Source of the DNA: Nanobdellota archaeon
Lineage (GTDB): Archaea > Nanobdellota > Nanobdellia > Pacearchaeales > GW2011-AR1
Assembly: GCA_018830245.1 (NCBI GenBank)
Contig: JAHJSW010000001.1
Location: forward strand, 1-36,843
Length of the DNA: 36,843 bases
Direction: 5' to 3'
Below the pieces are notes generated by a model that did not search any database, was not told the origin of the DNA, and saw only the letters and a program-made list of their open reading frames with translations. Every line of letters begins with the position of its first letter. Within the stretch, counting starts at the first letter, position 1. A program made the position numbers and the translations under genes. Of this stretch, positions 6,488 to 25,658 are shown piece by piece.

Positions 6488-7819
6488 TTAATTATTGTTT
6501 TTAAAATTATCTTTGCGATTTGTCTTCTTGCCTTTTTTATTTTCTTGCAAATTTTTTCTAATAACATAATTTACTGGATTTTTTACCAAATTGCAAAAAT
6601 TATCTGGAACACAAACACCGATCCCGTGATAGAATTCCTTGCAATTTGGAGGCATAATTGGCTTTCTTTTATAACTCCATAATAATTGAGATTTAATATA
6701 ACCTTTTTTTAAAGGAGGGTTATTTTTTTTATTCCAATCATCAATTTTTTTTTCTAATTCTTCCTTTTCCATCCCAATTGAACGAAATAAATTGATTAAA
6801 GCGAATAATGCTCTTTTCTTCCCATCAACAACACCATTTAAAATTTTTTTAATGCAAAAAGGGAAATTTTCATCTGAAAGATTATCTAATTTTATTGGTT
6901 TATAATTTGCATATTTTCCAGTGATTTTTTCCTCTGACTTCCCAGCTTTGATTTCATTGTCTTTATCCCAATCTAATGCCTGCATTAATAATTCAGAAGC
7001 TTCTCCCTCTACAGAATTTGGCATAAAATTTCTAATCTTTGCTTTTAAAGGATCTGCATCTTTTAATTCAAAATCTGGAAGTTCTTTTAAATCTAAAACA
7101 ACACTTGCTAGAGCTGTTTTTTCGTGCAAAGAATAAGGTGTTCTGAATAAATGTCTTGGAGAAACTAAAATAAGGTCAGGCATAACTTCTTGAGACGATT
7201 GGAAATCTTTTACATATTTATTTGGTCTTTCTAAATCACTTATTTTTTCAATTAGTTGCTTTTTTGTTTTCTGAATAATATACTTTATAATTATTCGAGG
7301 ATATTCTGGGAATCTCTCAGAAGTTTTTATTTCATTAATTTCTTTGGGAAAAGCTTTCCACGGAATAATAATGTGAAATCCTTTTGAACCTGAAAATTTT
7401 ATCCCTATGTTTTTTATTCCGTGAAATTTGAGAAAGTCCATTATAATTTTTGCAGAAATTTTTGAGTAATCAATATATTTACTATCAATATCAATCAGCA
7501 AATCCCACCCTTCTCTTAATTCATTTAACTGCTGCTCATTTAAATCAGTGGATAATTTTAAGGGGTCTTTCCATATTTCTTCAGAACAGTTAAGAGAGGT
7601 TGCTCCTTTTTTTGCTAACTCAAATACATCTCCAGGATATTGGAGTGAATCTGGTCTTTTTCCAAATCCTTCAAAATATAGTGGACAAACTTCACGATTT
7701 TTGCAAAATTCAAAAATTGCTTTTTGTACATCTGATCTAGAGTAGTAAAGTTCAGTAATTTTTCTAATTCTTTGCTCTTTAAAAGAAGGTGTTTTTTGTT
7801 CCATTAAAGAAATTGCCAA
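6488..7819 (-). CDS. priS: DNA primase, catalytic PriS-like domain fused to PriL-CTD-like Cys segment
   Basis: LLIDIDSKYIDYSK (DxD) and IKFSGSKGFHIIIPW (SGxxGFH); C-terminal MPPNCKEFYHGIGVCVPDNFC. Confidence 0.8.
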   Translation of the reverse strand: MAISLMEQKTPSFKEQRIRKITELYYSRSDVQKAIFEFCKNREVCPLYFEGFGKRPDSLQYPGDVFELAKKGATSLNCSEEIWKDPLKLSTDLNEQQLNELREGWDLLIDIDSKYIDYSKISAKIIMDFLKFHGIKNIGIKFSGSKGFHIIIPWKAFPKEINEIKTSERFPEYPRIIIKYIIQKTKKQLIEKISDLERPNKYVKDFQSSQEVMPDLILVSPRHLFRTPYSLHEKTALASVVLDLKELPDFELKDADPLKAKIRNFMPNSVEGEASELLMQALDWDKDNEIKAGKSEEKITGKYANYKPIKLDNLSDENFPFCIKKILNGVVDGKKRALFALINLFRSIGMEKEELEKKIDDWNKKNNPPLKKGYIKSQLLWSYKRKPIMPPNCKEFYHGIGVCVPDNFCNLVKNPVNYVIRKNLQENKKGKKTNRKDNFKNNN

Positions 7820-7889: not shown

Positions 7890-8615
7890 ATGCTAGTTAA
7901 ATTAGAAACCCCCCTGCTTTTATCAAAAGCTGTAGAGATTATCTCAGAATTAGTAATAGATGCTAGGATAAAAGTCAATGATTATGGACTAAGTATTACT
8001 GCTATAGACCCGGCAAATGTTGCGATGGTAAGCTTTAAGCTCCCAAAAAGTGCTTTTTCTCAGTTTGAGACTGGAGAAGAAGTTTTAGGAGTAAACTTAG
8101 ATAATCTAAAGAGAATTTTAAAAAGATGTGGTGCAGGAAGTTCTCTCACTCTAGAAAAGAAAGATAATCTCCTGAATATACAAATTCAAGACAGGATTAA
8201 AAGAAATTTTAACCTTAGTTTAATTGATATAGATAGAGAAGAAAAAGATCTCCCTCTTTTAGATTATAGTTCAAAAGTAGAAATGAATTCTATTGATTTT
8301 ATTGCGTCTGTAGAAGATTGCGCAGTTGTTGCTGATGCGTGTTCATTTATCATCCAAGATGGAAAATTTATAATAGAAGCAAAAGGCCTAAATTCTGCAA
8401 TGTCTGAATTTTCAGGAGATGAAGCAGGAATTATGGCTGAAAACTGCAAGGCAAGATATAGCATAGAATACTTGCAAAAATTTGTAAAAGGAGCTAAACT
8501 TAATGATAAAATAATTCTTAATTTTGCAAATGACCATCCTCTAAAAGTAGGTATTCGGTCAGAACACATGGAATTAATATTTATTCTTGCGCCGAGAGTA
8601 GAGACAGAGGGTTAA
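7890..8615 (+). CDS. pcn: DNA polymerase sliding clamp (PCNA)
   Basis: Full-length PCNA pattern, e.g. ISELVIDARIKVNDYGLSITAIDPANVAMVSFKLP and C-terminal LIFILAPRVE. Confidence 0.95.
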   Translation: MLVKLETPLLLSKAVEIISELVIDARIKVNDYGLSITAIDPANVAMVSFKLPKSAFSQFETGEEVLGVNLDNLKRILKRCGAGSSLTLEKKDNLLNIQIQDRIKRNFNLSLIDIDREEKDLPLLDYSSKVEMNSIDFIASVEDCAVVADACSFIIQDGKFIIEAKGLNSAMSEFSGDEAGIMAENCKARYSIEYLQKFVKGAKLNDKIILNFANDHPLKVGIRSEHMELIFILAPRVETEG

Positions 8616-8697: not shown

Positions 8698-8835
8698 ATG
8701 AAAGAGAGGATTTCTGCAACAGTAGATAAAGAAACAATAGAAACAATAGAAAAAATTCTTAGAGAAGGGAGATACAGGAATAAATCTCATGTTATTGAAG
8801 ACGCAATTAAATTATTAAAAGAGAAACGAAAATGA
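8698..8835 (+). CDS. Ribbon-helix-helix (CopG-like) DNA-binding protein, 45 aa
   Basis: Manual translation MKERISATVDKETIETIEKILREGRYRNKSHVIEDAIKLLKEKRK*; stop overlaps the next start (ATGA). Confidence 0.75.
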   Translation: MKERISATVDKETIETIEKILREGRYRNKSHVIEDAIKLLKEKRK

Positions 8836-9593
8836 AAAAGAAGAGAGGGCAGGTGACGATTTTTATAATTTTAAGCATAGTTTTAATTGGAAGTTTAATT
8901 TTATTTTTTCTTGTAAGAGAGGGAATTGTTCCTCAATTTTGGGGAGGTGGAGAGATAAATCCAGATCTTTTTCTGCAAACTTGTTTAGAAGAAAAAATAG
9001 AGAGCACTATTGATATACTTTCTTCTCAGGGAGGATATATTGAAAATTCTTTATCAAAAGAATTTGACGGAAAAAATATTTCTTATTTATGCTACAACTC
9101 TCTTAATTATTATACCTGCATAAATCAGGAACCACTTCTGATTCAACATTTAAAAAACGAGATTAAGAAAGAAATTTCTGAGGAAGTAAAAAATTGTTTT
9201 AATGAGCTATCACTTAATTTAGAAAAAGAGGCTTATACTGTTGATGCAAAATATCATGATTTCGCCATAGATCTAGAATCTAAAAAAGTTATTGTAAAAA
9301 TAAATGGCGAAATGACTCTTACAAAAAATAGTGAGACCTTGAAACATGATGATTTTATTATTGTAGTCAAGAGTAGTTTTTATGATTTAGCGATAATTGC
9401 TCAGGAAATCATAAGCCAAGAATCAGAATTTTGTAATTTCAATTATCTTGGATATATGTTGCTTCATCCAGAAATAAGTATAGAATTAAATAATCTTGGA
9501 GACCAGACAAGTATTTACCATCTTCAACATAGAAAAACTGATGAAGATTTTTGGTTTGCTCTGAGAACTTGCGCACTTCCCGGAGGGATATAG
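8832..9593 (+). CDS. Pilin-like membrane protein (class III-type N-terminus), paralog 1
   Basis: MKKKRGQVTIFIILSIVLIGSLILFFLV; paralog of 13266..14069. Confidence 0.7.
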   Translation: MKKKRGQVTIFIILSIVLIGSLILFFLVREGIVPQFWGGGEINPDLFLQTCLEEKIESTIDILSSQGGYIENSLSKEFDGKNISYLCYNSLNYYTCINQEPLLIQHLKNEIKKEISEEVKNCFNELSLNLEKEAYTVDAKYHDFAIDLESKKVIVKINGEMTLTKNSETLKHDDFIIVVKSSFYDLAIIAQEIISQESEFCNFNYLGYMLLHPEISIELNNLGDQTSIYHLQHRKTDEDFWFALRTCALPGGI

Positions 9594-12500
9594 ATGAAAT
9601 CAAAAAATAGAAAAATAGCGATTGCAGAAATTTTAATATTAGTACTGGGAATTTTTTCATTTTCCTACTTATTATATCAGACTATGCCTCTTATTTCTGC
9701 ACAAGATATTTTAGGATGTTGTACTGAAACAAATACTGGAGCAAAATGCCAAGACCTAGTGCTGGGAAGTGATGAATGTAAAGAAGCTCTGCTTCCAAGT
9801 CAGTGCAAAGACACTTCAAATTGTAAACTTGGGTGTTGTATTGATGAAGAAGAGGGTTTGTGTTCTGAAAAATCTCCAAAAGACCTATGTACTTCTGATG
9901 GAGGAACTTGGAAAGACAATGAAGTATGCAATATTATTGAGTGCCAAAAAGGATGTTGTGTTTTAGGAACTCAGACAAATTATGTAACAGATGCTAGATG
10001 TGGGAAACTCGCAGGATTTTACGGGATTGAAAAAGATTTTCGACAACAAATAAAAACAGAATTAGAATGTGTTTTGCTGGCAGAATCCCAAGAACACGGA
10101 GCGTGTATATTGGGAGAAGATGTTTGCAAGTTTACTACTCAAGGAGATTGTGTAAATAAAGAAGGAGAGTTTCACAAAGATGTTTTATGTTCTAATCCTT
10201 ATCTAGAAACTTCTTGTGAACAGCAAGTTTCTGTAGGCTGTGTTGAAGGATTAGATGAAATTTACTGGTTTGACTCGTGTGGAAATAGAGAGAATATTTA
10301 TAATGCAGATAAAAATGTTTCTTGGAATAATGGAGAGTTATTACCAAAAGATCAGAGCTGCAATCCTACTTCTGCAAATATTGAGTCAGAAACTTGTGGG
10401 AACTGCAATTATTTTTTAGGGAGTAAGTGTGGTAGTTCTGAAGAGATAAAAATAAAGGATGGAAATTTTATTTGCCAGGATTTAAATTGTTATAATACTT
10501 ATGATGGAAGTGACAGAGTAAATGGAGAGAGCTGGTGCATATATGATGCTTCTATTGGAACAGGAACAGATGTTGTTGGAAGTCGACACTGGAAACATAT
10601 GTGTATTGACGGAAAAGAAGTTGTAGAACCGTGCGCAGATTATAGGCAGGAAATCTGTGCAGAAGAAATAGTAGAAATTTCAACTGATAAAAAAGTTAGT
10701 ATGTCTAATTGCATTATCAATGAATGGAGATCTTGTTTTTCATATAATGAACTATCAGCAGATAAAATGGTCAAGAAGTGCTCGGAAAATCAGCACTGTT
10801 ATTTAAAATCATTATGGCACCCTGGTGGAAAAGTTGCGCAAGGCCCAATTCAGACATGTCTTCCAGAATATCCTCCAGGACTTATATTTTGGGGAGATCA
10901 GAGTTCTGCTTCACAAATTTGCAGTCCAGCCTCACAAAATTTAGATGTTACTGCAGTTAAAGAATGTGGATTTTTAGGAATAAGTGAGGAGTGGGTATAT
11001 GTTGCAAATGATGTTGCAAGAACAGAAACCTGGTCCCAGATAATGAATAAGTGGTGCACTAATCTTGGAGATTGTGGTGCTTATGTTAATATTGAAGGAG
11101 AGGTTACAACAGGAGGATATAGCACAAGTGGGGTAGCTCGTGCTCTTTCTGCAAGTTACTTATCCCAGTTAGCAAGTTTTAATATTCCAAACCCTGATGC
11201 AAAAGGAAAAATTTCTGGAATAGTTCCTATTGAAGAAGAGGAAGATACTAGCTGGACTACTCTTATAGGATATGGTGTATTAGGTCAATGGCTTTATGAA
11301 GGAATTGCAGGATTAGATGTTTTTGCAGGTGCGGTAATGAATCCAATGGGGACCTGGAGTGAAGCAGGATTTCTTAATTTTATGACTCAACCATATTTTG
11401 CTGCGCCAGCAGCAATTGTTGCATCATATTTTGCAGGACAGATGATTGGACAGTTAATGGGGCTTGATGAGGCATCTGCTCAGCAAGTTGGAATTGCGGG
11501 TGCTATTGGGGCTATTGGCTCTGTTGCTTATACTTCTTTTTTTGGAGGTGGTTTTAACGCAGTAACTTTTGGAACAACATTTATGTGGGGAATTATTGTT
11601 GCTGTTGTTGTAGCAATCTGGATGCAATTAAAGGGATGTGGAGAACAGGCAAAATGGAAAGCAGGATTTACCTGCAGAGCGTGGGATCCTCCGTCAGGAG
11701 GAAAGGATTGTGAAAAATGTAATGAAGGTGAAAAAGATTCTGATGGAAATTTATTTCACGAATGCTCAGAATATAGATGTAAAAGTTTAGGTGCTGCTTG
11801 TGAATTTATTAATGCTGGAACAACAGACCCTAAATGTATCTGGAGTAGGCCAAATGATGCGGCTTCTCCAGTAATCAGTCCGTGGCAAGAAAGTTTATCA
11901 AAAGGGTATAATTTTGAGACAAGTGCTTCTTGCCCGTCAACATGCTCAAATAAAGTAATTAGAAATAATGAATCTGGTTGTTTAGAAGCATATAAATCAA
12001 TTACTTTTGGGATACAAACAGATGAATATGCTAAATGTAAATTTGATACTTCAAATAAACAATATGAAGATATGGTTAATTCATTTACAGGATTATATAC
12101 AGAAAATCATTCAACAGTAATTATGTCCCCAGGAATAATCACTCTTGAAGCAGAATTAGAAAGATTAAGAAAGCAATTTAAAAATGAGACAGGAGAGCCA
12201 CTTGGACAAGAGTATATTGATAATATTATAAATAAATCAATTGATGGAACATTAAGATTATATATAAAATGTAAAGATGTAAATGGAAATACAAATTCTG
12301 CTCCTTTGTTAGTTGAGATGTGCTTAGACCCTGAACCAGACACAACTCCTCCACATGTTGTTTCAATTAATCCAAATAATAATCGAAAAATAGCATACGG
12401 GTTAACAGAACAAGATATTTTAATGTATGTAAATGAACCTGCAGAGTGCAAATATTCTTCTACAGATAAAATTTATGATGAAATGGAAAATTCTTTTGAC

Positions 12501-13220
12501 TGCCAGACAGAATTAAGTGAAGGAACAATAAAAGGATGGTTATGTGCAACTAAACTTACAAATCTGCAAAATGAAAATTCTTACTATATCAGATGCAAAG
12601 ATAAACCATATAGTGTGGAACAAGAGAGAAATGCAAATTTAGAGAGTTATAATTATGTAATTTCTAAATCATTGAGTGAACTTTCAATTAATTCGATTTC
12701 TCCAGATGGAGATGTTGGAGGGGGATTTGAACCAATTTCAGTTAGTCTTGAAGTAAAAACCTCTGGAGGAGCAAATAATGGCGTCTCTATTTGTTATTAT
12801 AAATGGGGGAATAACTGGATTTCTTTTATGGAGACAGATTCAAAATCCCATAAACAACAATTAAGTTTAGGAAAAGGAAGTTATTCAGTAGAAATAAAAT
12901 GTGTTGATGAAGCAGAGAATGAAGCTTATGGAGAAACTAGTTTTCATTTAAACTTAGATACTTCTCCACCAAGTGTAGCGAGAGCATATAAAGAAGGGAA
13001 TAAATTAATTGTAATCACAGATGAAAAAGCAGAATGTTTTTATCATCCTAATAAATGTTATTTTGATATAGAAAATGCAACTTTAATGACCACTGTATTT
13101 TCAAGAGAGCATAGTGCAGAATGGATTACTGGACAAGTGTATCATATAAAATGCATAGATATTTGGGGGAATAAAGCTGACGGATGCAGTATGAAAATAT
13201 TTCCGAATTCATTAGTTTAA
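9594..13220 (+). CDS. Large Cys-rich surface/membrane protein, 1208 aa
   Basis: KIAIAEILILVLGIF N-terminus; repeated LGCC modules; central Gly/Ala-rich hydrophobic segments; Ig-like C-terminal half. Confidence 0.75.
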   Translation: MKSKNRKIAIAEILILVLGIFSFSYLLYQTMPLISAQDILGCCTETNTGAKCQDLVLGSDECKEALLPSQCKDTSNCKLGCCIDEEEGLCSEKSPKDLCTSDGGTWKDNEVCNIIECQKGCCVLGTQTNYVTDARCGKLAGFYGIEKDFRQQIKTELECVLLAESQEHGACILGEDVCKFTTQGDCVNKEGEFHKDVLCSNPYLETSCEQQVSVGCVEGLDEIYWFDSCGNRENIYNADKNVSWNNGELLPKDQSCNPTSANIESETCGNCNYFLGSKCGSSEEIKIKDGNFICQDLNCYNTYDGSDRVNGESWCIYDASIGTGTDVVGSRHWKHMCIDGKEVVEPCADYRQEICAEEIVEISTDKKVSMSNCIINEWRSCFSYNELSADKMVKKCSENQHCYLKSLWHPGGKVAQGPIQTCLPEYPPGLIFWGDQSSASQICSPASQNLDVTAVKECGFLGISEEWVYVANDVARTETWSQIMNKWCTNLGDCGAYVNIEGEVTTGGYSTSGVARALSASYLSQLASFNIPNPDAKGKISGIVPIEEEEDTSWTTLIGYGVLGQWLYEGIAGLDVFAGAVMNPMGTWSEAGFLNFMTQPYFAAPAAIVASYFAGQMIGQLMGLDEASAQQVGIAGAIGAIGSVAYTSFFGGGFNAVTFGTTFMWGIIVAVVVAIWMQLKGCGEQAKWKAGFTCRAWDPPSGGKDCEKCNEGEKDSDGNLFHECSEYRCKSLGAACEFINAGTTDPKCIWSRPNDAASPVISPWQESLSKGYNFETSASCPSTCSNKVIRNNESGCLEAYKSITFGIQTDEYAKCKFDTSNKQYEDMVNSFTGLYTENHSTVIMSPGIITLEAELERLRKQFKNETGEPLGQEYIDNIINKSIDGTLRLYIKCKDVNGNTNSAPLLVEMCLDPEPDTTPPHVVSINPNNNRKIAYGLTEQDILMYVNEPAECKYSSTDKIYDEMENSFDCQTELSEGTIKGWLCATKLTNLQNENSYYIRCKDKPYSVEQERNANLESYNYVISKSLSELSINSISPDGDVGGGFEPISVSLEVKTSGGANNGVSICYYKWGNNWISFMETDSKSHKQQLSLGKGSYSVEIKCVDEAENEAYGETSFHLNLDTSPPSVARAYKEGNKLIVITDEKAECFYHPNKCYFDIENATLMTTVFSREHSAEWITGQVYHIKCIDIWGNKADGCSMKIFPNSLV

Positions 13221-13265
13221 CAAAAATTTTTAAACAGAAATACCGTATAAAAAAAAGGAGACAAT

Positions 13266-14069
13266 ATGAAAAAAAGAGGTGAGGACGCGAATAATAGAAA
13301 AGGTCAGATTACAATTTTTATAATTCTTGCAATAGTTGTTGTAGTTCTTGGAATTGTTTTATACTTTTTTTATCCTAAAATAATCTCAAACTTTGGATTT
13401 GAATCAAATCCCTCATTATATATGGAGTCCTGCATTAAAGAAGACCTAACAAATACTGTTGAAAAAATATCTTCTCAGGGAGGAAGTTTAGAACCAGAAC
13501 ACTATATTATGTATCAAGGAAACAAAATAGAATATCTTTGTTATACTGAAGAATATTATACTACTTGCATAATGCAACAACCAATGTTAAAACAGCATAT
13601 TGAAAAAGAAGTTCAAGAAGCAATTAAAAGTAAGGTAAGTGAATGCTTTGATCTTTTAAAAGAAGATTATGAGAAAAAAGGATATTCTGTGAATTTAAAA
13701 AAAGGAGAGATTAGTATTGAACTCCTCCCTCAAAGAATTATTGCTTTGTTTAATTCTACATTGACTATTAAAAAAGAAGAATCTCAAAAATATGATTCAA
13801 TTAAAATTGTTTTAAATAATAATCTTTATGAGTTAGTGAGTATTGCCAATAGTATCTTAAACTGGGAGGCTCGTTACGGAGATTCTGAAACAACAACATA
13901 TATGGATTATTATCATGATCTAAAAGTTGAGAAAAAGAAACAATCAGAAGGCTCAACAATTTATATTTTAACAGATAGAACAAGTGAAAATAAATTTCAG
14001 TTTGCATCAAGGAGTGTTGCATGGCCTCCAGGATATGGAATTGATAAAGTTTATATTGAAAATGCGTAA
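13266..14069 (+). CDS. Pilin-like membrane protein, paralog 2
   Basis: NRKGQITIFIILAIVVVVLGIVLYFF; shares ISSQGGxxE, YLCY, QPxLxQHIxxE pattern with 8832..9593. Confidence 0.7.
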   Translation: MKKRGEDANNRKGQITIFIILAIVVVVLGIVLYFFYPKIISNFGFESNPSLYMESCIKEDLTNTVEKISSQGGSLEPEHYIMYQGNKIEYLCYTEEYYTTCIMQQPMLKQHIEKEVQEAIKSKVSECFDLLKEDYEKKGYSVNLKKGEISIELLPQRIIALFNSTLTIKKEESQKYDSIKIVLNNNLYELVSIANSILNWEARYGDSETTTYMDYYHDLKVEKKKQSEGSTIYILTDRTSENKFQFASRSVAWPPGYGIDKVYIENA

Positions 14070-15918
14070 AAAAAATATATTTATTTTAGGACTTGGAATT
14101 TTCTTACTAGGAGTTCTGCCATTTATTTCAGCAATAGAAATTTCTTATTGTTGTGAAAAAACAGTTGATGGTGCGTGGTGCCAGAATGCTCCTGAAGAAA
14201 GATGCGATGATGATTTTAGAAAAGTCCCTGCTTCTTGTGATGCTACTTCTTATTGTAAACTTGGATGTTGTTATGACAGTCAGGAAGGAACTTGCATGGA
14301 AAATACTCCTCAAAAAGTTTGTGATGGCCCTGAAGAAAACGACCCTCACGGAATTTGGTCTGGAGATAGTACTGAATGTGATATTCCCCAGTGTAGTTTA
14401 GGGTGTTGTTTAATTGGAGATCAGGCAGCGTTTGTAACACAAACTAGATGTAAAAGACTCTCTTCATTATATGGATTAGAAATTAATTTTAGAACAGATC
14501 TTTCTAATGAGGTTTTGTGCATCCAAAGTGCGACATCAGAAGTAAAAGGGGCTTGTGTTTTTGAGAAAGAGTATGAAAAAACTTGTAAATTTATCTCTAA
14601 AAGAGAATGTTTAGAAATGAGTTCTGGTAATGAGACAGGAGAGTTTCACGAAGGTTATTTATGTTCTGCTGAAAATCTAGGAACAAATTGCGGACCTACA
14701 GAAAAAACAGTTTGTGTTGAAGAGTATGATGAAGTTTATTTTGTTGATAGTTGTGGGAACTTAGCAAATATTTATGATGCGTCTAAAATAAAAAATAAAA
14801 ATTACTGGTCAAAAATTGTAGGAAAAGCAGAAAGTTGTGGATTTGGTCAGTCAAATGCAGATTCTTCTAGTTGTGGAAATTGTGATTATTATCTTGGAAG
14901 CAGTTGTAAGGCATATAAAGTTGGGCAGGATAAAGTTCGTCCAAGTTATGGGAATAATCTCTGCAGGGACTTAGGTTGTAAGTATGATGGAGAAGACTAT
15001 GAACACGGAGAGACTTGGTGTATTTATGAAAATCAGGTAGGAAAAGGAAGAGATGTTGTTGGAAGCAGACATATAAGAGCGATTTGTTATAATGGGGATG
15101 TTTTAACAGAACCTTGTGCAGATTTCAGACAGGAAATTTGTCTTCAAGAAGAAATAGAAACTACAAAAGGAGAGTTTTTTAGCTCAGCTTGTGTTGTTAA
15201 TCGATGGCAAGATTGTGTTGCTCAGACAAATAGAAAAAATTGTGAAAATATAGATAAAAGAGAGTGCACATGGCTAACTGACGGGGGTTTAATGTCGCAC
15301 CAGTCATATGAAGCAGAGGAAGGAGATTTAACAGATTCTAGTTCAGATAGTAGTCCAAGTTCATCAAGCAGTACTACAACTGCAGATACAACTACTAATT
15401 CAAATTCCACAATTACTGGAGGAGTGATTACTGGCGCATTTATTGGAGGGATTTTTGGAGGAAGTGATGATTCTGAGGAAGAGTATAGTGATGCTCCAAC
15501 AATAATTAAAGGTGCTTGTGTTCCAAGTTATCCTCCTGGTTTAGAATTTTGGTCAGATGGAGAGACCAGGCAGGTTTGTTCTCAGGCAGATTTTGTCTGT
15601 TATGTTGAATTTGCAAAAAAAGGCTATTTCTTTTCACATGAAGCAGAGTGTGTAAAAAATTGTGAGTGCTTGTCTAATTCATGGGTAGCAAAACAAAATA
15701 GAATTTGTAATGGTCTTGGGGATTGTGGTGCTTATGTTAATATAGAAAAGAAATTCACTTCAGGAGGAATGAGTGTAAAGAAAGGAACTGTTCCAAGTAA
15801 CTTTAGTGAAGGATTAATAGAAGGATTATACAAGGATTTATTTGTAGGAATCTTTGAGGATGTTTTTGAAGGAGTATTTGATATTGGAGATATTTTTGGA
15901 GGAGGTCTTGGGTTTTAG
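14062..15918 (+). CDS. Cys-rich surface protein, paralog of the N-terminal half of 9594..13220
   Basis: Start moved from 13984 to 14062 (MRKKNIFILGLGIFLLG signal); shared VVGSRH..ICYxGxxxxEPCADFRQEIC and GLGDCGAYVNIE. Confidence 0.75.
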   Translation: MRKKNIFILGLGIFLLGVLPFISAIEISYCCEKTVDGAWCQNAPEERCDDDFRKVPASCDATSYCKLGCCYDSQEGTCMENTPQKVCDGPEENDPHGIWSGDSTECDIPQCSLGCCLIGDQAAFVTQTRCKRLSSLYGLEINFRTDLSNEVLCIQSATSEVKGACVFEKEYEKTCKFISKRECLEMSSGNETGEFHEGYLCSAENLGTNCGPTEKTVCVEEYDEVYFVDSCGNLANIYDASKIKNKNYWSKIVGKAESCGFGQSNADSSSCGNCDYYLGSSCKAYKVGQDKVRPSYGNNLCRDLGCKYDGEDYEHGETWCIYENQVGKGRDVVGSRHIRAICYNGDVLTEPCADFRQEICLQEEIETTKGEFFSSACVVNRWQDCVAQTNRKNCENIDKRECTWLTDGGLMSHQSYEAEEGDLTDSSSDSSPSSSSSTTTADTTTNSNSTITGGVITGAFIGGIFGGSDDSEEEYSDAPTIIKGACVPSYPPGLEFWSDGETRQVCSQADFVCYVEFAKKGYFFSHEAECVKNCECLSNSWVAKQNRICNGLGDCGAYVNIEKKFTSGGMSVKKGTVPSNFSEGLIEGLYKDLFVGIFEDVFEGVFDIGDIFGGGLGF

Positions 15919-15975
15919 TGATACTACTTCATAGTAACATTTAAATATGATGGAAACAACAAAAAAATAAGGAAA

Positions 15976-16557
15976 ATGGGATTAAGACAAAAACTGATAG
16001 CAGGGGCAGGAGCATGTACATTAGCTGTAACTACGACTTTGTTGTCTGGATGCGGAAGTATGACCCAAAGAGAGAGAACTGAAATACTAGGACTCGCAGC
16101 ATTTGGACTTCCAGGATATGCTCTTGCAAGGTTATCTAATCAAGAGCAGGAAGAACAGCAAAGAAAACCTCAAAAACAAGAAGAACGTGCTTTTTTTACA
16201 TATGGGTTTGATAAAGACTTAAATGGAGATGGGATTTTAAGTCCAGATGAATTTTTTGAGATGGGGAAAAAAATATTTGACTTACGTACTGAAATGATGA
16301 GTGTAGGATTTTTTAAAGAAGATTATGAAGGACCTGTTCTTTTTAGAGCATTCACAAAATCAGGAAAAGAGATTGGAAGAAACATAAGAATAAATTCTAA
16401 AGGAAGATGCTTAGTTACATATACTGGTCCAGGAACAGAAGGGGATGATTTTATGGAGAAGATTAAAAAACAAGGTCCAGGAAAATACGATGTTACAGCT
16501 ACTATTCTAAAGAATGGAGAAACATATAAATTAGAATTAGAGATAACTAACAAATAA
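15976..16557 (+). CDS. Lipoprotein with EF-hand-like calcium-binding loop
   Basis: Lipobox-like TTTLLSGC; DKDLNGDGILSPDEF EF-hand loop. Confidence 0.7.
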   Translation: MGLRQKLIAGAGACTLAVTTTLLSGCGSMTQRERTEILGLAAFGLPGYALARLSNQEQEEQQRKPQKQEERAFFTYGFDKDLNGDGILSPDEFFEMGKKIFDLRTEMMSVGFFKEDYEGPVLFRAFTKSGKEIGRNIRINSKGRCLVTYTGPGTEGDDFMEKIKKQGPGKYDVTATILKNGETYKLELEITNK

Positions 16558-16560
16558 AAA

Positions 16561-18576
16561 ATGTACTTAAAAAAGAGGTTTGATAAAAGAGGTAAGATTG
16601 CAATTTTAGAGATATTTATTCTCTTGCTTGGAATTATCGCAATTTCTTATGCAATTGGAAGTGAGATTAAACTTATAAAAGCAAGAGCTAAGGTCCCCCC
16701 AGCTACAGAAAATCCTACTAAGAACCCTCCACTAGGAGATCTCTCTGGAGGAGCAGTTCAAAAAGGAGCGGGAGGAGCAGAAGCTGCTACAGGAACAGCA
16801 ACCACAATTATGAATGGGTTTTTATGGGCAACAATAATTATCACTGCGCTAAAAATGTTTGGGATTACTCTCGGAGATAGCAAGTATACTACAAAAGCAT
16901 TAAGAGCAGGGGCGTTCTGGGGAGTAATGTCATATTATATTACCGACGCTATTGACCCAACATGGGCTGCTGAAAAAGGATGGTGGGATGTTTCTCAAGG
17001 CGCATGGGTTGGAATAGGTGTTGGACTGCTTATTTTTGAAGCAACATATAAAAAAGTAAAAGTTATTCCTGTTACATTTAACTGTCTTCCGTGGGAAGCG
17101 CCGACAGGAGGAGGAGATTGTGAGAAATGCAACGAAAGAGAAGTATGCAGTGAGTATATGTGTAAAAGTTTGGGACAGGCATGTGAATTAATTAACAAAG
17201 GAACAGAAGAAGAAGCATGTGCATGGGTAAATCCTCATGATGTAACACCTCCAATAATTGAGACCTGGGAAGATGCATTACTTCCTGATTACAAATATTC
17301 TCCTGACAATACAATTTCTCCACCTGATAGAGGAGTAAAAGTAATAAACACTAAATCAACAACAGACTGTGCAAAAGCATTCACCCCACTTTCCTTTGGA
17401 ATCACTCTTGATGAACCAGGGAAATGTAAAATAGATTATATAAGAAAAGGCAGTTTTGATGAGATGGCTTATTTATTTGGAGAGAGTGGCACACTAAAAT
17501 ACGAACATACTCAGACAATGAGTCTTCCTGGACCAGAAGCATTTAAAGAAGAAAATATCACACTTCAAAATGATGGAGAGTATGAATTATATGTAAGATG
17601 CCAGGATGCAAATGGAAATTATAATACTGCGAATTTTGTATTTAGATATTGTGTAGAAAAAGGGCCTGATACAACCCCTCCTCTGATTGTTAACACAAAT
17701 TTACTGAACAATATGCCTATTGCATATAATCAAACTTCTCTTGAGATTGAAGTTTATGTAAATGAACCTGCAGAGTGTAAATGGAGTCATAGAGACCAAG
17801 ATTATGATAAGATGGAAGAACAGATGGTATGTTCTTCTAGTATATTTGAAATGAATGCGCAAATGCTTTATGAATGCTCAACAAAACTTACTGGAATAGT
17901 AAGTAAAGAAAAAAATTCATTTTACTTTAGATGCAAAGATAAACCAAGAGCGACAAGTGATAGAAATACTAACACAGAATCATATGTTTTTAATGTGCTT
18001 GGAACACAACCACTAGTAATAAGCACTGTAGAACCAAATAATACACTTGTAAAAGATTCTACAGAGTCGGTAAAAGTAACTATTAAAGTTGAAACAGCTG
18101 CAGGGCATGAAGATGGAAAATCAATCTGCTATTATAGTGAGACAGATGATGAGGAAGATTATATTATGTTTTATAAAACTCAGTCACATGTACACGCCCA
18201 AGAATTATGGTTATCTGAAGGAAGGTATGATTATTTTATAAAATGCGTTGATCTTGGAGGGAATTCAGATAAAAGAAGCATAAATTTTGATGTTGAATCA
18301 GATATCAGTGCTCCTTCTGTAGTAAGAGTTTATCATGAAGAATCATACTTAAAATTAATTACAAATGAAAAAGCAGAGTGTGTTTATGATACAATGAATT
18401 GTAATTATCAGTTTGATGACGGGACATCAATCTCAGTAATAAATGAGGTTAATCACTATACTGACTGGGATACTAAAAAAGAATTTTTTATAAAATGCCA
18501 AGACGAATATAGAAACCAACCTCTTCCAAACGAATGCAGTATAATTGTAAGACCATTAGAACTTGGGTTTCGATAG
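16561..18576 (+). CDS. Membrane/surface protein, paralog of the C-terminal half of 9594..13220
   Basis: RGKIAILEIFILLLGI N-terminus; shared CxxWxxPxGGxDCEKCNE, YVNEPAECK, YYxRCKDKP segments. Confidence 0.75.
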   Translation: MYLKKRFDKRGKIAILEIFILLLGIIAISYAIGSEIKLIKARAKVPPATENPTKNPPLGDLSGGAVQKGAGGAEAATGTATTIMNGFLWATIIITALKMFGITLGDSKYTTKALRAGAFWGVMSYYITDAIDPTWAAEKGWWDVSQGAWVGIGVGLLIFEATYKKVKVIPVTFNCLPWEAPTGGGDCEKCNEREVCSEYMCKSLGQACELINKGTEEEACAWVNPHDVTPPIIETWEDALLPDYKYSPDNTISPPDRGVKVINTKSTTDCAKAFTPLSFGITLDEPGKCKIDYIRKGSFDEMAYLFGESGTLKYEHTQTMSLPGPEAFKEENITLQNDGEYELYVRCQDANGNYNTANFVFRYCVEKGPDTTPPLIVNTNLLNNMPIAYNQTSLEIEVYVNEPAECKWSHRDQDYDKMEEQMVCSSSIFEMNAQMLYECSTKLTGIVSKEKNSFYFRCKDKPRATSDRNTNTESYVFNVLGTQPLVISTVEPNNTLVKDSTESVKVTIKVETAAGHEDGKSICYYSETDDEEDYIMFYKTQSHVHAQELWLSEGRYDYFIKCVDLGGNSDKRSINFDVESDISAPSVVRVYHEESYLKLITNEKAECVYDTMNCNYQFDDGTSISVINEVNHYTDWDTKKEFFIKCQDEYRNQPLPNECSIIVRPLELGFR

Positions 18577-18612: not shown

Positions 18613-18978
18613 TTATTTAACAAATTCAACATTTTTAAATTTCTCAAATTCCTTATCTCCAGTGAGAAAAAGAAGATTATTTTCTAATGCATAGGTATAA
18701 CCAATGCAATCTGCATAAGATAGATTCTTTTTTTTATTTTTAATTCTAAATTTTACTGCCTTTTTTAAGACCTTGTCATTAGCATTAATAACAAAATACC
18801 TAAATTTTTCATAGATTTCATCAGCAATTTTTTCTCCATACTCCCGTAAAGCAAACCAATAAATTTCGACTAAATTAAAAACAGTCATTGCAAAAGGTTC
18901 TTGAGAGTAACGAGCATACATAGGATTTCCATCAAGAAGTTCAATTACTGCATAGCTATCAAAGAAATATCCTACCAT
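18613..18978 (-). CDS. vapC: PIN-domain toxin (VapC-like)
   Basis: FFDSYAVIELLDG N-terminus, NLVEIYW, LSYADCIGYTYALENNLLFLTGDKEF. Confidence 0.85.
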   Translation of the reverse strand: MVGYFFDSYAVIELLDGNPMYARYSQEPFAMTVFNLVEIYWFALREYGEKIADEIYEKFRYFVINANDKVLKKAVKFRIKNKKKNLSYADCIGYTYALENNLLFLTGDKEFEKFKNVEFVK

Positions 18979-19184
18979 CCTTTTCTCATTTCGTCTTTTA
19001 TTTTTTGAGCCCTCTGCTTAGATTTGCGAGGAAACATTCCAAAAAAGTCTCTTGCAAGGAGATTTTTCTTAATTTCTATTGTAATTTCATGGTTTTCTTT
19101 AATTTTATGTGCCTCTACAAATATCTTAGGAAGAATAATTGCCAGTGAATTCCCCCATTTTCTTGGTCTTGTCTTTATTTCCAT
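18972..19184 (-). CDS. vapB: AbrB/SpoVT-type antitoxin (VapB-like)
   Basis: TRPRKWGNSLAIILPK; overlaps the PIN gene. Confidence 0.85.
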   Translation of the reverse strand: MEIKTRPRKWGNSLAIILPKIFVEAHKIKENHEITIEIKKNLLARDFFGMFPRKSKQRAQKIKDEMRKGW

Positions 19185-19337: not shown

Positions 19338-19835
19338 ATGAAAAAGAGTGGCCAGATGAAGTTATCTTTTGGTATGATTGTTTCAATTATTCTAATAATT
19401 ATATTTATTGCTTTTGCTTTTTTTGCTATTAAAAAATTTCTTGAAATTCAGGAAGCTGTAAAAATTGGAAAATTCAAAGATAATTTACAGGCAGATGTTG
19501 ATAAAATGTGGGGAGGTCAGCAGGGTTCTCAAGAAAAAGAATATTTTCTTCCAAAAAAAATACAGTATGTTTGTTTTGTAAATTATTTATCTTCAAAAAA
19601 AGGAGAGAACCAAGAATTATATAGTAAATTAAAACAAGTTTATTATGGTGAGGAAAATATGATTTTTTATCCTTTAGGATCTGCACAAAGTTTAGAAGCA
19701 GTAGAATTAAAACATTTAAACATGGAAAAAATAACTAGTGATGAAAACCCGTATTGTATTGCTCCTAAAAATGGAAAAGTTCAGATGAAGATACAAAAAA
19801 AATATGAAGAGGCACTTGTTGAAATAACTCGATAA
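19338..19835 (+). CDS. Pilin-like small membrane protein (class III-type N-terminus)
   Basis: MKKSGQMKLSFGMIVSIILIIIFIAFAFF. Confidence 0.65.
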   Translation: MKKSGQMKLSFGMIVSIILIIIFIAFAFFAIKKFLEIQEAVKIGKFKDNLQADVDKMWGGQQGSQEKEYFLPKKIQYVCFVNYLSSKKGENQELYSKLKQVYYGEENMIFYPLGSAQSLEAVELKHLNMEKITSDENPYCIAPKNGKVQMKIQKKYEEALVEITR

Positions 19836-19836
19836 A

Positions 19837-20763
19837 ATGTTAGAAAAAAAAGGTTATCTAGAACTCCCTTTTGCCTGGCTTTTTGCAATTGTTGCAGGAG
19901 CATTTATCTTATTTCTTGCAATTTTTTTCGCAACAAAACTAATCAATCTTGAACAAACCAGTATTGATGCTCAGACAGGAAAAGAGATTGGGATATTGCT
20001 TAATCCTCTTGAAACAAGTTTTGAGGCAGGGAAAACAACTTCATTTATAATGCCAGTTGATACAAGAATCTACAATAAATGCAATAATAAAGGAATTTTT
20101 GGGAGACAGATAATCCAAATCTCTCAAAAAAGTTTTAATAAATGGACAGAAACAGATTTAGAAGTTGGTTTCTCAAATAAATACATATTTTCAGAAAATT
20201 ATACAGAAGGGAAGAAATTTTATTTATTTTCCAAACCATTTGAATTCCCCTTTAAAATCTCTGATTTAATTTATATGACTTCTTCAAATAAAATTTACTG
20301 CTTTAAAGATCCTCCTTTAAACATAGAAGAGGAATTAGCTTCATTGAATCAAGGAAATATTAGAATAAATAATTGTTCAGGGGAAAGTATTAAGATTTGC
20401 TTTTCAGGAGGATCTGAATGTGAGGTAGATGTAAACTATGAATATAAATGGGTAATTAGAAATTCAGAAAAAGTATATTTTGAAAAAGATGCACTGATGT
20501 ATGCTGCGATTTTTTCAGATAAGAAAACTTATGAGTGCCAGTTAAAGAGATTAATGCAAAGAGTAAATCAATTAGCGCTATTATATCAGGATAAAGCAGA
20601 TTTTGTTTCAAAAGCAGGATGCGAATCAAATCTAAAACAAGATTTATTAATGTTAAGTAATTCAGCGTCTGATTTTGAAGATTCGTCAAACCTTGGAGTG
20701 CTTGCTATAAATGTTGAATCAATTAAAGACAAAAATAATTTTGCAGATTGTGAGTTATGGTAA
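19837..20763 (+). CDS. Pilin-like membrane protein (class III-type N-terminus)
   Basis: MLEKKGYLELPFAWLFAIVAGAFILFLAIFF. Confidence 0.65.
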   Translation: MLEKKGYLELPFAWLFAIVAGAFILFLAIFFATKLINLEQTSIDAQTGKEIGILLNPLETSFEAGKTTSFIMPVDTRIYNKCNNKGIFGRQIIQISQKSFNKWTETDLEVGFSNKYIFSENYTEGKKFYLFSKPFEFPFKISDLIYMTSSNKIYCFKDPPLNIEEELASLNQGNIRINNCSGESIKICFSGGSECEVDVNYEYKWVIRNSEKVYFEKDALMYAAIFSDKKTYECQLKRLMQRVNQLALLYQDKADFVSKAGCESNLKQDLLMLSNSASDFEDSSNLGVLAINVESIKDKNNFADCELW

Positions 20764-20764
20764 G

Positions 20765-21283
20765 ATGAAAAATAGAAAAGCACAACTAAAAATAAAGCAA
20801 ATGACATTTATGTTAATTGCTGTCACGCTATTTTTTGCACTAGTTGGAATGTTTGTCTTGGTTATTAAATTTTCAGATATACGAGAAGCTGCAACTGAAC
20901 TTGAAGAGAGGAATGCCATGTTACTTGTTTCAAAGCTTGCTAACTCCCCTGAATTTTCTTGTGGAGGAGCATTTGACACACCTCGGTTAAATTGCATAGA
21001 TGCTGATAAAGTAATGATTTTAAGGCAACACATAGAAAAATACAATGATTTTTGGGGGGTTTCGAATATAGAGATAAGAAAAATTTATCCTGCAGCAAAC
21101 TCTGAAATCTTGTGCACTCTTGAGAATTATCCTAATTGTAATATCATCAGATTACGTTCAAAAGAGATTATTGGAGCAGATTTATCAAATTTTATATCTT
21201 TATGCAGAAAAGAACCTTATGAAGGAGATTATTACAATAAATGTGAACTAGCCAGAATTATGGTGAGTTATGAAGAAAAATGA
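20765..21283 (+). CDS. Pilin-like small membrane protein (class III-type N-terminus)
   Basis: Start moved to 20765: MKNRKAQLKIKQMTFMLIAVTLFFALVGMFVLVIKF. Confidence 0.65.
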   Translation: MKNRKAQLKIKQMTFMLIAVTLFFALVGMFVLVIKFSDIREAATELEERNAMLLVSKLANSPEFSCGGAFDTPRLNCIDADKVMILRQHIEKYNDFWGVSNIEIRKIYPAANSEILCTLENYPNCNIIRLRSKEIIGADLSNFISLCRKEPYEGDYYNKCELARIMVSYEEK

Positions 21284-21768
21284 GAACAAAAAATAAAAAA
21301 GCACAAGAAGAAATGATTGGTTTTGCGCTAATAATAATCATAGTTGCGGTGATTTTATTAATTTTCTTGGGATTTTCCTTGCGAACTCATCAAAAAGAAC
21401 TTGTAGAGAGTTATGAAGTAGACAGCTTTATTCAATCTTTTTTACAATATACTAGTGATTGCGCAGAAGGTCATGAACCAAATTATGCTTCAATTCAAAA
21501 ACTTATTTTTTTATGCAATAGGAAAGAGAGGTGCACAGATGAAAGAGATAGTTGTGAAGTTTTGAACACTACATTAACTCAAATATTAGAAAAAAGCTGG
21601 GAAATTGTAGATAGACCTACTAAGGGATATGAACTAAATATTAGTTCAGGTAATAAAGATATTATTTTGATTAAAACAGGGAATTTTACTAGAAATTATA
21701 AAGGATCTCAACAAAATTTGATAATTGGGGGAAACCCTTCAGATATAATCTTTGTAGCTTATTATTAA
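21280..21768 (+). CDS. Pilin-like small membrane protein (class III-type N-terminus)
   Basis: MRTKNKKAQEEMIGFALIIIIVAVILLIFLGF; ATGA overlap with previous gene. Confidence 0.65.
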   Translation: MRTKNKKAQEEMIGFALIIIIVAVILLIFLGFSLRTHQKELVESYEVDSFIQSFLQYTSDCAEGHEPNYASIQKLIFLCNRKERCTDERDSCEVLNTTLTQILEKSWEIVDRPTKGYELNISSGNKDIILIKTGNFTRNYKGSQQNLIIGGNPSDIIFVAYY

Positions 21769-22133
21769 ACTTTTAAATGAATAGTAATAGTATCTACAAT
21801 AATCTCTGGTTTGTGCCGTATTCTATTCTTAGTTTTTTCCTCAATAAGTTCAATAAACCCAAATCTCTCTAAAAGCTTAATATCATCATTTACAGACTTA
21901 AATCCTCGATTTAATTTTTTCGCCAAATCATATATAGATTTTGGATTTTGAGTCTTAATTGTATGCAAAATACGTGCTTTTTCATTGCTTAAAAGCTGCC
22001 TCAAGGCCAAAACTCCAGAAAAATCATAGTCTTTTTTAGAGATTCCTGATTTTTTGAAAATAGAAAATGTTCCTTTTGATTCTTTAATTGTAATTTCTCG
22101 TGTCTTTTTCTTAACCATCTTGTTTTTATACAC
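21765..22133 (-). CDS. Winged-HTH transcriptional regulator
   Basis: NEKARILHTIKTQNPKSIYDLAKKLNRGFKSVNDDIKLLERFGFIEL. Confidence 0.75.
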   Translation of the reverse strand: MYKNKMVKKKTREITIKESKGTFSIFKKSGISKKDYDFSGVLALRQLLSNEKARILHTIKTQNPKSIYDLAKKLNRGFKSVNDDIKLLERFGFIELIEEKTKNRIRHKPEIIVDTITIHLKV

Positions 22134-22471: not shown

Positions 22472-22510
22472 AATTATCATACAAATGAAAGGAGGTTGAA
22501 AAGAAAAGAA

Positions 22511-24910
22511 ATGAAATTTAGTTTTAAAAAAATATCTGCTATAGCAACTAGTGCATTAATGTTAGGTATGAGTGCTGGTGTCGCTGTTGCAGCAAGCTAT
22601 CCAGAACCTTTTATTTCTGGAGGAAGTGCAAATGTAGCTATTGTTTATGGTACAGGGGCAGGGGTTTCTGCTCTAGATCTTGTTCAAGCCGGAAACATAC
22701 AGTCTAATTTGCAATCTAATCTTGGTTCAGCAGGAACTACTGTAACTAGTGGTTCTGTCACTGGAGGAGATAGTGTTAAATTCGAAAAATCTTCAACAAA
22801 ATTCCAATTAGGAAAGGGGATTACAGATATTATCTCAACTTCTATTACTGATGATAGTCCTGGAGAAGGACTTAAAGTTCTTTTAGCTGATGGGAAATAT
22901 GTGGATGATGATAATGACGAAAAAGACTATACTCAAAAGATTGATATGGCTAACTTAACATTAGGTATGTTTGATGATGATGACTATAAACCAGACACCC
23001 CTACAATTGGCTTTAGAGTTACTAGCGCATCTCAGGTATTAAATTATACCTTAGATTTTACTGATGAACCAGAGTGGGCAGACTTAACATCAACAAATAT
23101 TGAAATTATGGGAAAAACATATTTCATATTGAGTGTTACAGCAAACACAACAATAAATCTTCTTGACTCAGCAAATACTGCAACAGTATCAGAAGGTGAA
23201 ACCGCAAGTGTTACTGTAGAAGGAACAACCTATGAAGTTTCTATCCAGTATATTAGTTCTACAGAAGTAAAACTAACAATTAATGGAGAGAATACAAATA
23301 GTCTGCAAGAGTCGCATACTCAAAAATTGAAGAATGGGGCTTATGTTGGTATCAAAGACATTATGCATGATTCAAAAACAGGAAGTGTGAGTAGTGTAGA
23401 GTTTAGTATTGGAACAGGAAAATTAATTCTTAAGGATGCTACTGATGTTGAGATTAACGATGCATCTGTGTCTAATATGAAAACATATATTACTACAACA
23501 AGTTCGTCTACTCCTACAATTAGCAAAATTGTAATTGAATGGAAAGCAGATGATGAATTATTTATAGCGCCAGACAGTGAGGTTACAATGCCAGGGTTTG
23601 GAGCAGTAAAATTGTCCTTTAGTGGGATGTTATACCCTAAAGAAGAAGTAATTACTGTTAAAGGAGGAAGTACTACTTATGCCGTACTTGAAAATTTCCC
23701 TATGAAAGATGGTTCAGTAGATATAAACATTCTTTACGGAAATAGTAGTGATTGGACAGGAATTGGAAAAGATTCTACTCATCTACTAAGAACAGATGTT
23801 GATTCAGACATAACATTTGACAAAGACACTGATGAATATTTTGTAGCTTCTTTTAATGATGGAAGTAATGCAGAATCTTATTTAATGAGGGCTACTGATT
23901 TCGGGCAGATTGGAACTACTACTGCAAACAGAACTGATATTCAGTATCGGAAAGATGGTGTTTGGACAACAATAAAAGACGATGCTAAATTAGCAGATGT
24001 TGTCACAATCGGGAATGTCCAATTAACTATTGGAGCAATTAAGAGATCTGCAGAAAATACTGTTGTCCTTACAGCAGGAACAAGTTGTAACTTTCATACA
24101 GCTTATTCAAAAGAAGGCTTAGAAGTTTTCTTACCATATGCTGCTGATGCTGGACCAGCTACTGCTAGACCAGGTGCGCTTAACACAACTAATGTAACTC
24201 ATGGAGGAACTGCTACCACTTTTGACTTAATCTTTAGTGAAGAAGACAAAAATGGAAATATTGGTGATGGAGGAAACATTACTGCAGTTCTTGGATGGAA
24301 TTCTGCCACAACTAAAGAAGCTTATGTAAGCGATGTTGGAAACGAATCAGTTACATTTGCTGAAGATGGAGACAGCACTAAAAAATGGCTAAGTTATAAA
24401 TATGGTGCACTTGCTTCTAAATTGTTGTGGGATAAAACAGGAGACCAGTATGAACTCCAGATAACATATCATGGAGATGAATCATATGGAGAAGTTTACT
24501 TAACTGCTCCTCTTGCAACTGTTTCAGCAGGAACAACTTCAACAACTACTGCAACTCAACTTGGAGATGTATTAGTAAAAGATAGTGAAGTTAGCTCTGT
24601 AAGTTCAAAGAACTTAATTATTGTTGGTGGAAGCTGTATTAATTCAGCTGCTGCTAAAGTATTAGGTGGAACTTATTGTGGTGCAGGATTCACAGAAGCA
24701 ACTGGTGTCGGAGCAGGAGAATTCCTAATCCAGAGTGTAGGCGATGCTTATTCAACTGGAAAAATCGCATTAGTTGTTGCTGGTTATGAAGCTGCAGACA
24801 CTGTAAATGCTGCTACATATCTAAGAACTCAAACAGTTGACACAACTGCAGGTAAGAAATACAAAGGTACTTCATCTACTAGTGCAGAACTTGTTACAAC
24901 AACAGTGTAA
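22511..24910 (+). CDS. S-layer protein
   Basis: Signal peptide MKFSFKKISAIATSALMLGMSAGVAVAA then SGGSANVAIVYGTGAGVSALDLVQAGNI, as in methanogen/DPANN S-layer proteins; TTG at 22496 abuts the SD so ATG 22511 is preferred. Confidence 0.85.
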   Translation: MKFSFKKISAIATSALMLGMSAGVAVAASYPEPFISGGSANVAIVYGTGAGVSALDLVQAGNIQSNLQSNLGSAGTTVTSGSVTGGDSVKFEKSSTKFQLGKGITDIISTSITDDSPGEGLKVLLADGKYVDDDNDEKDYTQKIDMANLTLGMFDDDDYKPDTPTIGFRVTSASQVLNYTLDFTDEPEWADLTSTNIEIMGKTYFILSVTANTTINLLDSANTATVSEGETASVTVEGTTYEVSIQYISSTEVKLTINGENTNSLQESHTQKLKNGAYVGIKDIMHDSKTGSVSSVEFSIGTGKLILKDATDVEINDASVSNMKTYITTTSSSTPTISKIVIEWKADDELFIAPDSEVTMPGFGAVKLSFSGMLYPKEEVITVKGGSTTYAVLENFPMKDGSVDINILYGNSSDWTGIGKDSTHLLRTDVDSDITFDKDTDEYFVASFNDGSNAESYLMRATDFGQIGTTTANRTDIQYRKDGVWTTIKDDAKLADVVTIGNVQLTIGAIKRSAENTVVLTAGTSCNFHTAYSKEGLEVFLPYAADAGPATARPGALNTTNVTHGGTATTFDLIFSEEDKNGNIGDGGNITAVLGWNSATTKEAYVSDVGNESVTFAEDGDSTKKWLSYKYGALASKLLWDKTGDQYELQITYHGDESYGEVYLTAPLATVSAGTTSTTTATQLGDVLVKDSEVSSVSSKNLIIVGGSCINSAAAKVLGGTYCGAGFTEATGVGAGEFLIQSVGDAYSTGKIALVVAGYEAADTVNAATYLRTQTVDTTAGKKYKGTSSTSAELVTTTV

Positions 24911-25056: not shown

Positions 25057-25497
25057 TCAACCAATGAGAGAGGGACCATGGTGTTCCTCTTGATGTAAAA
25101 CATAGGAGATAGTAAAGTCCAAATCAGTGAAACCAACTGAGGCTATGAACTTTCCTTTAGACCAAAGATGTCGTCGAGGATATCTTAATTTAGCTTTAGG
25201 GTGAAACCTAAAGAAAAGGTATGAGGAAGCTCCCTTAATAAGTTGGACAAGTTTGCTTGGATTAACACTAACCTTGGTTTTAACAACCATATGGACATGC
25301 TCAGGCATAACATTGATTGTTATTATCTTGATATTATGTTTGGTACAAGTTTGTCTTATACAAGCTTGGATTAAATTTTTATATTTAATCTTACTAAACA
25401 TCTTATACCTATACTTAGTACAAAACTGGATGTGCCAAAAAGCAATACCAACCGAGTGATTGTTTCGATCATAAAGTTTCATAAAACTTATGCTCAT
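25057..25497 (-). CDS. tnpA: IS200/IS605 family transposase TnpA (Y1 HUH)
   Basis: PEHVHMVV HUH motif, ISYVLHQ catalytic Tyr region; start at 25497 has GGAG at 6-nt spacing. Confidence 0.85.
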   Translation of the reverse strand: MSISFMKLYDRNNHSVGIAFWHIQFCTKYRYKMFSKIKYKNLIQACIRQTCTKHNIKIITINVMPEHVHMVVKTKVSVNPSKLVQLIKGASSYLFFRFHPKAKLRYPRRHLWSKGKFIASVGFTDLDFTISYVLHQEEHHGPSLIG

Positions 25498-25544
25498 GTT
25501 CAACTCCAGAATAAAGCTCACGCTAAATTCGTAATTTAGTTCAT

Positions 25545-25565
25545 AGAGCCTAGTATCTAGGCTCT
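25545..25565 (-). promoter_or_regulatory. tnpA leader hairpin (IS-A)
   Basis: AGAGCCTAG-ATA-CTAGGCTCT on the minus strand, 9-bp perfect stem. Confidence 0.6.
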
Positions 25566-25658
25566 TCATAATCATGAATCAAGAAATAAATAAATTTAGG
25601 AGAAGGAAGGGATGCAATTCCCCTACTAGCTAAAGCTAGTAGTATCCTTGCAACTTAA

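Follow-up and report, generated by a model that had tools for sequence, protein, structure and literature searches.

Two adjacent genes, A and B, form a tandemly duplicated module in the 36,843-nucleotide contig of a Nanobdellota archaeon that was analysed here (the window), and they lie in an unnamed surface cluster which is widely conserved in the class holding the Pacearchaeota and many related families. The two copies of the module are old. Phylogenetic analysis indicates that the fused B gene, as found in copy 1, is the ancestral form, and that the B gene of copy 2 underwent fission into separate genes for its N-terminal half (BN) and its C-terminal half (BC). We put the probability that the encoded proteins form a membrane-anchored, S-layer-associated adhesion complex at roughly 50%, a function which we infer from domain type and gene neighbours. 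Most archaea of this class have very small genomes and no cultured representatives, and they are presumed to live on other cells.

The duplicated module and its locus

Copy 1 consists of A1 (8832..9593, forward strand as are all genes of the module; 253 aa) and B1 (9594..13220; 1208 aa), and copy 2 of A2 (13266..14069; 267 aa), BN (14062..15918; 618 aa counted from its ATG) and BC (16561..18576; 671 aa); open frames were verified at all of these coordinates. The stop of A1 at 9593 directly abuts the start of B1 at 9594, and the stop of A2 at 14069 overlaps the ATG of BN at 14062. A1 and A2 were 33.7% identical over 249 aa (E 2e-49), which bears out the paralogy claimed in the original prediction. 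The proposed correspondence between the halves of B1 and the two genes of copy 2 likewise held when they were compared by BLAST; the N-terminal half of B1 significantly matched BN (40% over 406 aa, E 1e-84), with an extra segment at the LGDCGAYVNIE end (43% over 91 aa), and its C-terminal half matched BC (36% over 530 aa, E 2e-96). Every motif quoted in that prediction was present in both copies, and the two copies of the window showed no sign of recent conversion.

Forty loci of the window's order were read along with twenty further loci, nineteen of those from other orders. The genes follow one order: PCNA, A, B, A, B (or BN-BC), p1, p2, p3, p4, a winged-helix gene and an S-layer protein, with the winged-helix gene on the opposite strand within the window's order. 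The median gap between A and B was near 0 nt, and p1 to p4 were likewise adjacent, with near-zero gaps. In the window, PCNA (7890..8615, forward; PF00705/PF02747) lies ahead of A1; it was found in 26 of 41 loci of the order and 9 of 19 of other orders, and is a conserved upstream anchor of the locus, outside the surface module. Downstream of BC, and on the forward strand, are four genes of conserved synteny: p1 (19338..19835; 165 aa), p3 (20765..21283, from an internal ATG, MKNRKAQLKI) and p4 (21280..21768; 162 aa), each for a small prepilin-leader protein, that of p1 with a single transmembrane (TM) segment, and p2 (19837..20763; 308 aa), for a single-TM protein with a weaker leader match. 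These are followed by a gene for an HVO_A0114/MarR-type winged-helix protein (21765..22133, reverse; PF25212, E 4e-16), present in 14 of 41 loci, and by the S-layer gene (22496..24910, forward; PF05124, S_layer_C, E 1.1e-9, above the cut-off), which was seen in 14 of the order's 41 loci and in 10 of 19 from other orders, both lower bounds as many loci are incomplete.

A protein search recovered relatives of B1 in 75 of 96 related genomes, and 238 relatives were confirmed when named genomes were scanned, among the matches listed mostly from Candidatus Pacearchaeota or Nanoarchaeota. In a class-wide profile search, the B N-half was detected in 130 of 287 genomes (45%) and A in 217 (76%); in a phylum-level draw of more complete genomes, the B N-half was detected in 52 of 199. 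The survey thus found the layout conserved across the order and in other orders, and no named system emerged from it: Pfam, NCBIfam and PHROGs held no usable or functional match for A or B, and the literature searched yielded no paper describing the PCNA-A-B-A-B-p1-p4-S-layer locus, in agreement with the earlier statement that no named system has this layout.

Several other genes flank or interrupt the locus. Beside PCNA lies a primase gene (6488-7819, reverse), whose single product combines a small-subunit domain with a weak large-subunit stretch; next to it is the gene for a 594-aa Cys-rich membrane protein (4692-6476, reverse), which had no Pfam match and kept this place next to the primase in 15 of 41 loci. 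A PIN toxin (PF01850) and a MazE-type antitoxin (PF04014) are encoded between BC and p1 (18613-19184, reverse), and two IS200-like Y1 transposase genes (PF01797) occur, one beside the S-layer gene (25057-25575, reverse) and one at the contig end (36123-36530, forward).

Fission of the B gene in copy 2

The original prediction had described a fusion in copy 1; the module tree reverses the direction of that event. Separate trees of A, the N-half and the C-half were mutually consistent. In the joined tree (95 modules, 1204 columns), all 29 modules from other orders were fused and formed one clade (SH-aLRT 100), and the four sister-family modules were also fused. Within the window's order, 35 of 36 modules in the copy-1 clade, to which A1 belongs, were fused (support 94), whereas 23 of 26 modules in the copy-2 clade were split (support 98); the fused single modules L038 and L039 grouped with the copy-2 side (support 96). 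Since every module of other orders and sister families is fused and copy 2 is mostly split, copy 2 underwent fission, and fusion in copy 1 was ruled out by the outgroup state together with the tree.

Three copy-2 genes are fused (L049, L053 and L057), and a topology that groups all split copies in one clade, as a single origin would require, was rejected (AU test, p 5e-70); these two results together imply that the fused or split state switched at least three times, through repeated fission or re-fusion. The AU test likewise ruled out that first copies, and second copies, are orthologous across orders (p 3e-50), so that either the duplications were independent or the copies were homogenised by conversion. 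Conversion does occur: in L057, a tract of 225 bp that takes in the leader region and the DNA ahead of it is 98.7% identical between the two B genes (starts 5449 and 10336), a recent gene conversion between copies.

The leaders indicate which of the two products kept the old N-terminus. The N-terminus of BC is a copy of the B1 leader (44% over 45 aa, E 9e-6; BLAST). When scored against an HMM of the fused-B leader, 24 of 24 BC leaders exceeded 8 bits (median 26), compared with 7 of 35 BN leaders, 4 of 281 controls and none of 240 shuffled BC leaders; these scores show that BC, not BN, inherited the old leader, and with it the hydrophobic helices, ahead of a Cys-rich/Ig-like C-half. BN, a Cys-rich protein, has a short, predicted Sec-type signal peptide and no internal membrane segment, and a TM segment after residue 60 was absent in 34 of 35 BN proteins of the family. 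The simplest route to such a pair would be a tandem duplication of B in copy 2, followed by complementary loss.

An assembly or sequencing artefact could in principle produce a split gene, and one frameshift-like split, the lone one in copy 1, was seen elsewhere (L065); nothing in the window suggests it, BN and BC carry leaders of their own, a 193-aa gene lies between them, and the same split recurs in more than 20 other genomes, so that the synteny survey refutes this explanation and we give it practically no credence. The fused-plus-split two-copy layout was also found in some twenty other genera, and is thus neither chance nor assembly error. This lasting adjacency of BN and BC strengthens the earlier suggestion that the two halves act together.

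The gene between BN and BC in the window (15976..16557, forward; 193 aa) encodes a lipoprotein with the lipobox LSGC and an EF-hand-like loop, the Pfam match to the EF-hand being below threshold. The lipoprotein noted in the original prediction is real, and is one of a variable, fast-changing set inserted between BN and BC: among the loci of related genomes, scored with simple patterns so that p-values serve as a guide only, lipobox ORFs accounted for 12 of 76 ORFs in the BN-BC gap and 10 of 775 elsewhere (p 3e-8). Genes for MNT-HEPN nucleotidyltransferases, assigned by Pfam (PF01909, PF18765 and PF01934), made up 10 of 44 ORFs in the A2-BN gap and 5 of 76 in the BN-BC gap versus 5 of 775 elsewhere. 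MNT-HEPN toxin-antitoxin pairs were observed between A2, BN and BC in L035, L037, L043, L047, L052, L061 and L070, with a maximum of three pairs in one locus (L035).

Leaders of the A and p proteins and the predicted fold of A

A consists of a leader ([KR][GA]Q; KRGQVTIFII in A1), a single TM helix and an alpha/beta ectodomain. A [GA]Q motif ahead of the TM segment was found in 121 of 146 A proteins, 29 of 37 p1, 33 of 35 p3 and 31 of 34 p4 proteins, and in only 9 of 38 p2 proteins; it was rare among unassigned TM-leader ORFs of the same loci (1 of 154) and in B (2 of 63), BN (1 of 75) and BC (0 of 53). As judged from this motif, A, p1, p3 and p4 carry a specific leader of the predicted prepilin type (class III). 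The AlphaFold2 (AF2) model of A2 (pLDDT 92.9) placed a compact alpha/beta ectodomain behind the TM helix, for which Foldseek found nothing in the PDB at E<=1e-3; the 50 best-ranked entries included no pilin. A Foldseek comparison of A with viral models gave one match (E 2e-4, TM-score 0.21), which was rejected as a relative, and against PDB sequences A matched only gp120 at E>=0.35, spuriously. The modelled ectodomain thus has no pilin fold, and is a confidently predicted fold without a PDB match; the earlier description of these proteins as pilin-like holds for the leader and fails for the fold, and the leader could merely anchor A in the membrane. A distant A-type domain (E 1.6e-13) occurs in a 535-aa protein encoded elsewhere in the genome (G000:C22:17561-17914, L180).

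The leaders raise the possibility of a type IV pilus tip, in which p1-p4 would be pilus-priming minor pilins and B a large tip adhesin, carried like PilY1 in Pseudomonas and assembled by an ATPase/TadC set encoded elsewhere. Such a set exists; the genome has a prepilin peptidase (PF01478, G000:C28:23604-23957, E 2.5e-13) and, on another contig, a type IV pilus operon with its one strong type IV ATPase match, two TadC-like proteins and several pilins (L154, G000:C2:4000-19096); at 85% completeness, a second type IV set may exist. Prepilin-type leaders on A, p1, p3 and p4, and the position of four small single-TM proteins beside a large Cys-rich/Ig protein, also suit a pilus tip, and archaeal type IV pilus loci in which minor pilins, adhesins and S-layer proteins occur together have been described (Makarova 2016, PMC4858521). 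The present cluster resembles these in combining small prepilin-leader proteins, a large Cys-rich surface protein and an S-layer protein, but differs in that Pfam found no secretion ATPase or TadC platform among its ten proteins, nor was a prepilin peptidase found there, that A does not have a pilin fold, and that its large protein has internal membrane helices, which would be odd for a tip protein, and no DUF2341. By analogy, it is also like PilY1 with FimU-PilVWXE, in which a big putative adhesin is encoded with several small prepilin-leader proteins; unlike that system, the module is duplicated, and no sequence or Pfam relation was found, with no Pfam match in B1, BN or BC to the PilY C-terminal beta-propeller or DUF2341. 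Nor is PilY1 known to have membrane helices in its centre. We consider a pilus tip possible but rather unlikely.

Predicted topology of B and the proposed complex

B1 comprises a leader, a Cys-rich N-half (residues ~40-511), a linker (~545-690) with a disordered stretch and hydrophobic helices, and a Cys-rich/Ig-like C-half (692-1208). In its AF2 model (mean pLDDT 85), both halves scored ~90 and the linker low, the latter consisting of the disordered stretch and three low-confidence helices. Foldseek likened the C-half to Ig/FnIII stacks of adhesion receptors and to the Aureispira grappling-hook protein; these matches are to generic Ig stacks, and their TM-scores, taken over the full query, did not exceed 0.14. 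In the B consensus, the conserved cysteines of the Ig-like domains are even in number, which suggests disulfides and an outside location. The earlier reading of the module products as surface proteins is supported. For the C-half to lie outside, the linker would have to cross the membrane an even number of times, whereas the model has three helices; if all three crossed and the N-half were outside, the C-half would lie inside. The charge around the last linker helix favours neither orientation.

The original prediction had also proposed a secretion apparatus. This received no support, as ATPase, platform protein and peptidase are located elsewhere in the genome and not in the cluster. A new secretion or uptake apparatus, in which the hydrophobic helices of B would make up a channel kept in place by A and p1-p4, might draw on the Gly/Ala-rich character of these helices (small-xxx-small spacing 10.3 versus 7.9 per linker in shuffles) and on conservation across small-genome archaea, but the cluster has no energising ATPase, there are only three helices in a region of poor model confidence, and the one match of B to PDB sequences, to AopB in the helix stretch, was not significant (E 0.49); we regard a channel as very improbable. 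The predicted secretion complex of arCOG01314/arCOG02487 (PMC5898192) likewise has a conserved neighbourhood that includes membrane proteins and Ig-like/S-layer proteins, but its MoxR ATPase, vWA and DUF4350 components are absent from the Pfam matches of this cluster. A further possible counterpart is cls.004306/NEQ255, a DPANN-specific secreted protein beside a predicted S-layer protein, listed as unexplained in one survey (PMC6393860); like the present proteins it is DPANN-wide, secreted and beside S-layer-like genes and, judged by its description, cls.004306 may be the A family.

The proximity of the S-layer gene, which adjoins in 14/41 and 10/19 loci (lower bounds), and the Cys-rich Ig-like stacks would also fit a scaffold in which A and B serve to anchor the S-layer or set its spacing and take no part in cell-cell contact. 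Two paralogous modules with lineage-specific lipoproteins would suit a contact surface better, and copy 1 has diverged strongly (best identity 48% versus 66% for copy 2, window modules); both are soft arguments, and we judge a pure scaffold unlikely.

In the adhesion complex that we favour, A would be anchored by its prepilin-type leader and TM helix and expose its compact alpha/beta ectodomain; B, presumably translated directly after A, would be a large disulfide-rich surface protein that runs from the Cys-rich N-half through membrane-associated helices to stacked Ig-like domains. Together with A and p1-p4, B would reside within the cell membrane or upon it, either beneath the S-layer encoded by the neighbouring gene or passing through it, and the complex would act in adhesion or cell contact. 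Processing of the leaders by prepilin peptidase, the topology and complex formation are thus predicted features. In the Pacearchaeota family, the module was duplicated and the copy-2 B gene split; BC kept the ancestral leader and membrane helices, BN would be exported by Sec as a separate protein and dock non-covalently on BC or A2, and the split opened the gap where lipoproteins and toxin-antitoxin pairs gather.

A bolder and doubtful extension is a class-wide DPANN cell-contact machine, distinct from a type IV pilus, in which A would represent a new fold, B would connect a disulfide-rich ectodomain with a helix bundle that inserts into the membrane, and the duplication of the modules would supply a second contact surface open to recombination. 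If this were true, the split of B in copy 2 would leave BC in the membrane and make the N-half free for exchange or shedding.

Together these data describe a surface module that is real, of ancient origin and conserved widely, in which the gene fission is informative: the natural division into BN and BC provides two separate constructs for binding tests, and the fold of A, predicted with confidence yet unmatched in the PDB, offers structural work a concrete target. Among the surface loci of the class, this is one of those that are widely conserved, and it shows which proteins travel together.
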